NCBI GenBank assembly: GCA_027295305.1
Contig: JAPULC010000202.1
Location: 1 to 46,139, forward strand
Length of the DNA stretch: 46,139 nt
Origin: Gammaproteobacteria bacterium
GTDB lineage: Bacteria; Pseudomonadota; Gammaproteobacteria; Pseudomonadales; Azotimanducaceae
Direction of reading: 5' to 3'
Shown: in pieces, positions 5,931 to 33,501 of the stretch
How positions within the stretch are numbered: the stretch's first letter is position 1
Layout of the letters: each line of letters starts with the position of its first letter
Notes under the pieces: generated by a model
Databases searched by the model: none
Seen by the model: the letters and a program-made list of their open reading frames with translations, nothing else
What the model was told of the DNA's origin: nothing
Translations under genes and position numbers: made by a program

Positions 5931-6656
5931 TTAGAGTTGCACGAACAGAGTCCCGAGAATCGGATGCGGACTATCCGGTAGGCCCAGAGGTCGATCCGCC
6001 CGAAGCTCGATGCACACGGAGGCGTCCTCGACACCCGGTTCGACAGACACCGCGATGCGCATGCCCGAGTCCGGCCATGTGAAGAGGAGCTCGTCGTCTG
6101 ACTGTTCGCAATGCGCCTCGAGCAGCTCTTTCCATTGGCGCACTGCACGCTCGCGGCTGCTCGTTCGCATTCTCACCCCCACGACGTTGACCGGTGGCGC
6201 GGCGATGTCCGGCTCCGGCGGCGCTTCTCCCCATCCCGGTTGCTCGCCTTCGGGTGCGTCGTTTTCGGACTCCACCATCTGCACCACGATGCCCATGGCT
6301 TCCTTCGGATGCAGAAAGGCTTCACGCCATCCGGGATTGCTGTCCTCGTACCCCACGATGCGGTAACCAAGCGCGGCTGCGCGCTCACAGATCGCGGATA
6401 ACGACGGGACCATGAACGTCACATGATGGATTCCGGGACCTTGGCGCTCGAGAAAGCGGTGAACGAAACCCCCCGGCGGACCCATGGGCTCGATCACTTC
6501 GATGCGGCCAATGCCGGGATAATCCCAATGCCAGAAACGGTACTCTCCGGCAGGGCCACCATAACCACTCTTGCCACCCAGCTCGCCCACCAGAAAGTCC
6601 GGGGCGTCGTTTATCCTCGGCGCACCGATGGCAACATGATCGAGAACAATGGGCAT
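5931..6656 (-). CDS. VOC/glyoxalase-fold protein (methylmalonyl-CoA epimerase-like)
   Basis: MPIVLDHVAIGAPRINDAPDFLVGELGGKSGYGGPAGEYRFWHWDYPGIGRIEVIEPMGPPGGFVHRFLERQGPGIHHVTFMV. Confidence 0.75.
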   Translation of the reverse strand: MPIVLDHVAIGAPRINDAPDFLVGELGGKSGYGGPAGEYRFWHWDYPGIGRIEVIEPMGPPGGFVHRFLERQGPGIHHVTFMVPSLSAICERAAALGYRIVGYEDSNPGWREAFLHPKEAMGIVVQMVESENDAPEGEQPGWGEAPPEPDIAAPPVNVVGVRMRTSSRERAVRQWKELLEAHCEQSDDELLFTWPDSGMRIAVSVEPGVEDASVCIELRADRPLGLPDSPHPILGTLFVQL

Positions 6657-6671
6657 GGAACTCGTACCCCT

Positions 6672-6893
6672 CTAGTTCATGTCCAGAAATTCGCCGTCCG
6701 GGCGAATTTCTTACCACGCTGCGGCGAAGTAAATTGGCCTTCATCTTGGTGGTCCACCACCGCGCTCCCAAAACCCTTGATTTTGCTGGGCGCTCTTCCG
6801 CAAAAGGCTCCGCAAAGAGCGGGTTTTGCTTAGGCAGCCGCACGGCTGCCCCGGCTTCCATGCCCCGGAGCTAGTTTCCGCCCGGGAAACTAG
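6672..6893 (+). repeat. Dispersed MITE-like structured element, copy 1
   Basis: CTAGTTCATGTCCAGAAATTCGCCGTCCGGGCGAATTTC...GGCAGCCGCACGGCTGCC...CTAGTTTCCGCCCGGGAAACTAG; aligns end to end with 33267-33497. Confidence 0.9.
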
Positions 6894-6909
6894 GCCACAA
6901 CGATACAGC

Positions 6910-20328: not shown

Positions 20329-20367
20329 GCCGCCAGGGACGGCAATTTCCGTACAAGAACTAGCTAA
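20329..20367 (-). repeat. Degenerate end-fragment of the MITE-like element (copy 3 relic)
   Basis: Minus strand TTAGCTAGTTCTTGTACGGAAATTGCCGTCCCTGGCGGC compared with CTAGCTAGTTCCTGTCCCGAAACTCGCCGTCCTGGCGAG; 18/22 identity over the terminal inverted repeat. Confidence 0.6.
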
Positions 20368-33230: not shown

Positions 33231-33255
33231 GGACAGGCAAACCTGTCCTTTTTTT
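33231..33255 (+). terminator. Rho-independent terminator
   Basis: GGACAGG-CAAA-CCTGTCC-TTTTTTT. Confidence 0.85.
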
Positions 33256-33262
33256 GTTGGCG

Positions 33263-33501
33263 CTAGCTAGTTCCTGTCCCGAAACTCGCCGTCCTGGCGA
33301 GTTTCTGTTGACGCTGCGGCGAAATGAATTCGCCTTCATCTTGGTGGTCTCCCACCACGCTCCCCGGCCCTTGCTTTCTGCTGCGCGCTCTTCCGCAAGA
33401 GGCTCCGCAAAAGCGGTCCTGCTTACGCCAGCCGCAAGGCTGGCGCGACATCCTTGTCCCGGACGCTAGTTCTTGTCCCTTTCGGGACAGGAACTAGCTA
33501 G
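33263..33501 (+). repeat. Dispersed MITE-like structured element, copy 2
   Basis: Perfect 22-bp terminal inverted repeats CTAGCTAGTTCCTGTCCCGAAA (33263-33284) / TTTCGGGACAGGAACTAGCTAG (33480-33501); interior aligns with copy 1. Confidence 0.92.

Follow-up and report, generated by a model that had tools for sequence, protein, structure and literature searches.

The segment at 33264-33500 of the window, the 46,139-nt stretch of DNA that was analysed, is almost certainly a MITE: a non-autonomous element that has the ends of ISNCY-family insertion sequences (ISs) (NF033593; DUF772 + DDE_Tnp_1), has no transposase gene and would be mobilised in trans into TAGYTA-like target sites, with duplication of the target. 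Its identity as a MITE is directly supported by many dispersed copies, by ends common to autonomous ISNCY elements and by relatives that do not have the element. We infer in addition that it is mobilised in trans, that 6-7 bp of target are duplicated and that it is probably immobile in the host at present. The host is described as a marine bacterium, and the 239-base stretch is a gene-less mobile passenger of an ordinary kind. The assignment connects a repeat family with many copies in uncultured marine Gammaproteobacteria to a transposase family that has a name, and partly explains why such a MAG splits into hundreds of contigs. It also supplies a target that can be tested, TAGYTA and often located at a stop codon, for an IS group that has received little study.

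Structure and fold of the element

The window is contig C116 of the host assembly (4.12 Mb, 523 contigs). The following features were located in it.

33264-33269, no strand: left target-like hexamer TAGCTA, read from the sequence; other copies show direct hexamers on both sides
33270-33284, + strand: left terminal inverted repeat GTTCCTGTCCCGAAA, 22 bp with the hexamer and the outer C included
33281-33305, + strand: left subterminal hairpin GAAACTCGCC-GTCCT-GGCGAGTTTC, one pair with a compensating change among the copies
33306-33462, + strand: non-coding interior, strongly conserved between copies
33463-33500, + strand: right end hairpin CTAGTTCTTGTCCCTTTCGGGACAGGAACTAG, formed by an internal arm copy (33466-33478) and the outer arm
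33480-33494, - strand: right terminal inverted repeat, TTTCGGGACAGGAAC on the + strand; the right-most 25 nt are identical to the right end of the L328 IS (see below)
33495-33500, no strand: right target-like hexamer TAGCTA, read from the sequence
6671-6896, + strand: second, diverged copy of the element (82% over 205 bp; nhmmer E = 1.5e-60)
20332-20366, - strand: GGCAATTTCCGTACAAGAACTAGCTA, what is left of one end of a related element

The original prediction described an exact 22-bp terminal inverted repeat, an interior without a plausible ORF and CTAG doubled at both outer ends, and all three descriptions were accurate. The repeat pair at 33263-33284 and 33480-33501 is perfect and its coordinates are correct; by a hand estimate, such a pair is expected by chance inside 239 bp at ~1e-9. 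The terminal inverted repeat reaches 25 nt at 96% identity. No ORF of at least 100 aa was found within the 239-bp element. The doubled CTAG is present as C-TAGCTA-G at 33263-33270, with its mirror image at 33494-33501. A detail absent from the original prediction is a third copy of the arm, CTAGTTCTTGTCC, at 33466-33478; the right end is thus a hairpin by itself.

The element and the stop codon of the adjoining thiolase gene are 14 bp apart, and the strand of the element folds much better than shuffled sequences (z = -7.9), largely because of the terminal arms. A structured RNA or 3′ untranslated region, retained for its fold and not moved, would also have strong hairpins, one of them with a compensating change, close to a stop codon. 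However, no Rfam family matched anywhere in the window, and only 1 of 68 consensus pairs showed a two-sided change among the aligned copies. Since the other 67 pairs showed none, the copies resemble each other because they spread recently, not because the fold is under selection. The copies also lie in unrelated contexts. The possibility, raised in the original prediction, that the sequence is an ancestral 3′ UTR is contradicted by the dispersal of the copies; of the orthologous thiolase loci of relatives, 0 of 16 show a trace of the element in a comparison that is not base-exact. We give a retained RNA or 3′ region next to no chance of being the correct reading. Immediately to the left of the element, at 33231-33255, is a terminator-like hairpin, GGACAGG-CAAA-CCTGTCC, with a T run after it.

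Copies in the host and in related genomes

A DNA search of the host assembly yielded 51 matches, comprising 40 long copies and 11 inverted ends that match each other. The other long copies are 81-97% identical to the window element, and the aligned copies are dispersed, with unrelated flanks. With at most 1 mismatch, the arm CTAGTTYYTGTCC occurs 103 times on each strand, compared with 17 and 4 times for the reversed pattern (206 versus 21 in total). The arrangements vary: some are long elements whose right end is a hairpin, some are inverted pairs that enclose other interiors at a spacing of 130-230 bp, and some are lone hairpins of ~32 bp (32-bp copies on C205, C413 and C316). Within the window, the copy at 6671-6896 overlaps open frames at 6385-6861 (- strand) and 6423-6833 (+ strand), which are consequently doubtful genes. 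Several host copies sit at contig ends, and therefore the repeats contribute to assembly breakage. Contigs C17 and C148 have identical flanks around copies that differ in length, which suggests a strain mixture within the MAG.

Copies were also sought in relatives, as the original prediction had proposed. Elements of 114-162 bp that have the same arms but different interiors occur in three further genera of the host's family. An exact, longer terminal-repeat pattern was found in the host alone across 195 genomes of the order, and for this reason looser patterns were used. A 16-base end pattern had any match in 14 of 58 sampled genomes, with counts well over those of the reversed control only in the host, G029, G002 and G016. 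When GTDB genomes were scanned for the pattern, the carriers were mostly MAGs titled Gammaproteobacteria or Pseudomonadales, and a few were titled Acidobacteria or Deltaproteobacteria. Matches to the 16-mer in IMG/VR were single unpaired sites.

Two elements of G029 were compared with sites in other genomes. G253 lacks the L208 element at its orthologous site, and G023 and G332 lack that of L234, with divergence too great for a base-exact reading. The suggested comparison of filled and empty sites thus confirmed that sister elements are absent at orthologous places. The central claim of a non-autonomous mobile element stands: near-perfect or perfect terminal inverted repeats enclose 239 bp without a transposase gene, copies are dispersed, relatives occur in other genera, orthologous sites are empty (not base-exact), and the ends are identical to those of an autonomous ISNCY element. 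Bacterial MITEs such as the Correia element are likewise 100-250 bp long with inverted ends, many copies and no gene, but their parent differs. The text of a review of such MITEs does not mention ISNCY (PMC10969869).

Autonomous ISNCY relatives

A full-length relative with the same ends, which the original prediction had suggested seeking, was found on L328 (JACZXM010000249.1), from a MAG labelled Acidobacteria and distinct from the host. Two ends lie 1.7 kb apart around a 455-aa transposase ORF, and both read CTAGCTAGTTCCTGTCCCGAAA inwards, the same as in the window element. At both ends 22 of 22 bases are identical to the window element; the match covers 25 nt on the right and 23 nt on the left. 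The transposase scored 433.7 bits against NF033593 (ISNCY, transpos_ISNCY_1), for which the cut-off is 325, and also matched PF05598 and PF01609. The ISNCY group concerned may be ISDol1.

We also searched 207 genomes of the host's family at the protein level for transposases of the L328 type. All six near-full-length ISNCY transposases found at an identity of 37% or more bear the arm motif wherever the contig extends to an end: on both sides in G377, G373 and two ISs of G258, and on one side in G227 and G376. One of the G258 ISs bears a variant arm, TAGTGCCCATCC, which is also present on the MITEs of G002. Split or partial ISNCY transposase copies in G236 and G016 bear arms as well, and the distant homologues (25-31% identity; G245, G006 and a second copy in G236) do not. 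The window element resembles the NF033593 ISs in its ends, with 22 of 22 bases at both ends of the L328 IS and similar arms adjoining the host-family transposases. It differs in its length of 239 bp compared with 1.6-1.7 kb, in having no transposase gene and in an unrelated interior, where nothing detectable was found in common with the ISs beyond the ends. A literature search for the motif found no paper.

No ISNCY transposase was found in G029, and no intact one in the host assembly, whose 523 contigs break at repeats; the sole trace there is a weak, stop-containing fragment on C458 (E = 4e-5). Consequently, the element family may be immobile in the host at present. An autonomous partner in the same genome is usual for a MITE and not required, and none beyond the C458 fragment was found in the 523-contig assembly.

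The IS1202/ISAjo2 family was formerly placed in ISNCY, and its ISAjo2 group has a short target duplication and a target preference (PMC10132070), as the window element may have. However, IS1202/ISAjo2 elements have outer ends 5′-TGT/ACA-3′ and a target beside dif/pdif (PMC10132070), whereas the arm of the window element starts with GTTCC, its ends lack 5′-TGT/ACA-3′ and its target is TAGYTA.

Target site and mode of insertion

The original prediction offered two explanations of the doubled CTAG, a 4-bp target duplication or a longer palindromic end. The first is not favoured: CTAG is not duplicated where the outer base varies, for example at C34:21832 (ATAG on the left, CTAT on the right). The flanks fit a palindromic 6-bp sequence, and the doubled CTAG is probably better read as a target TAGCTA beside each end. 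The hexamer in the host is nearly always TAGCTA; because it is palindromic and near-fixed, the test of within-copy agreement there has little power (p = 0.10, 36 copies). In G029 and G002 the flanking hexamers are direct repeats with a fixed orientation relative to the element. Among 27 oriented pairs of these MITEs, 24 agree at hexamer position 4, a significant excess over the 14 expected; agreement within copies at positions 1 and 2 was not above chance, and several copies have disagreeing hexamers. TAGCTA lies on both sides of the G236 and L328 ISs and TAGGCTA flanks the G377 IS at either end; in G258 and G373, the ISs have flanks that differ between the two sides. Since TAGGCTA is an unusual 7-mer, its presence on both sides favours a true duplication. 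A target duplication of ~6-7 bp appears likely from these flanks; ISfinder lists one of 6-7 bp for one ISNCY group.

We propose that an ISNCY transposase acting in trans would bind the GTTCCTGTCC arms and mobilise the element, which would be joined into TAGYTA-like sites; duplication of the target on insertion would leave TAGCTA beside each end. A DDE MITE with a 2-bp TA (IS630-like) or 4-bp CTAG/YTAR (IS5-like) duplication would account for the TA and CTAG that adjoin both ends of many copies, but not for the unduplicated CTAG at varying outer bases. TA alone leaves the agreement at position 4 and the double TAGGCTA unexplained, and the transposases that bear these ends are ISNCY. We find such a duplication highly improbable.

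REP/REPIN-type elements, which are hairpin repeats that depend on a RAYT (Y1 tyrosine transposase) for their movement, resemble the window element family in hairpin ends, in tandem units with a common core and in the lone 32-bp hairpins. The host has RAYT genes, and a RAYT of G002 adjoins an array of TTAGTGTCTGTCC, which is arm-like. However, of 58 relatives 29 have RAYT homologues, while the elements are clear in four, and the host RAYT on C113 adjoins a different motif, GGATGGATGTCC. No arm motif was found within 1-1.5 kb around the host RAYT genes. The arms flank ISNCY transposases; the ends are those of a DDE insertion sequence, and a target duplication seems likely, since the G377 IS has TAGGCTA at either side. 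Y1 transposition is not known to duplicate its target. Having no association with the elements, Y1/RAYT was rejected as their mover, and we believe a REP/REPIN origin to be very unlikely. The G002 array (L181, G002:C61, 772-1075) consists of ~10 direct repeats of TTAGTGTCTGTCC beside a truncated RAYT gene, and these are not the MITE arm. At L141 (G000:C113, 2875-4330; G000 is the host assembly) the RAYT gene has its own GGATGGATGTCC-type repeats adjoining.

Returning to the proposed ISNCY-driven insertion, we asked how the target lies relative to genes. For 46 elements from four genomes, the stop codon of an ORF of at least 100 aa lies at the target edge on 26 of 92 element sides, compared with 5 of 48 sides for other hexamers of this kind (p = 0.018), a count that may include genes truncated by insertion. 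That insertions often adjoin stop codons of neighbouring ORFs is a lead only. It is possible, although we hold it with considerable doubt, that across the lineage the elements form one set of MITEs derived from ISNCY, with interiors that are unrelated and in some cases reduced to lone hairpins of ~32 bp; insertion at TAGYTA would then tend to place them at gene stop codons, a safe site that would permit amplification. In some places adjacent elements share one core hexamer, as in CAGTTA-element-CAGTTA-element-CAGTTA (L244 and L239 of G002; G000:C221:124 and G000:C5:174).
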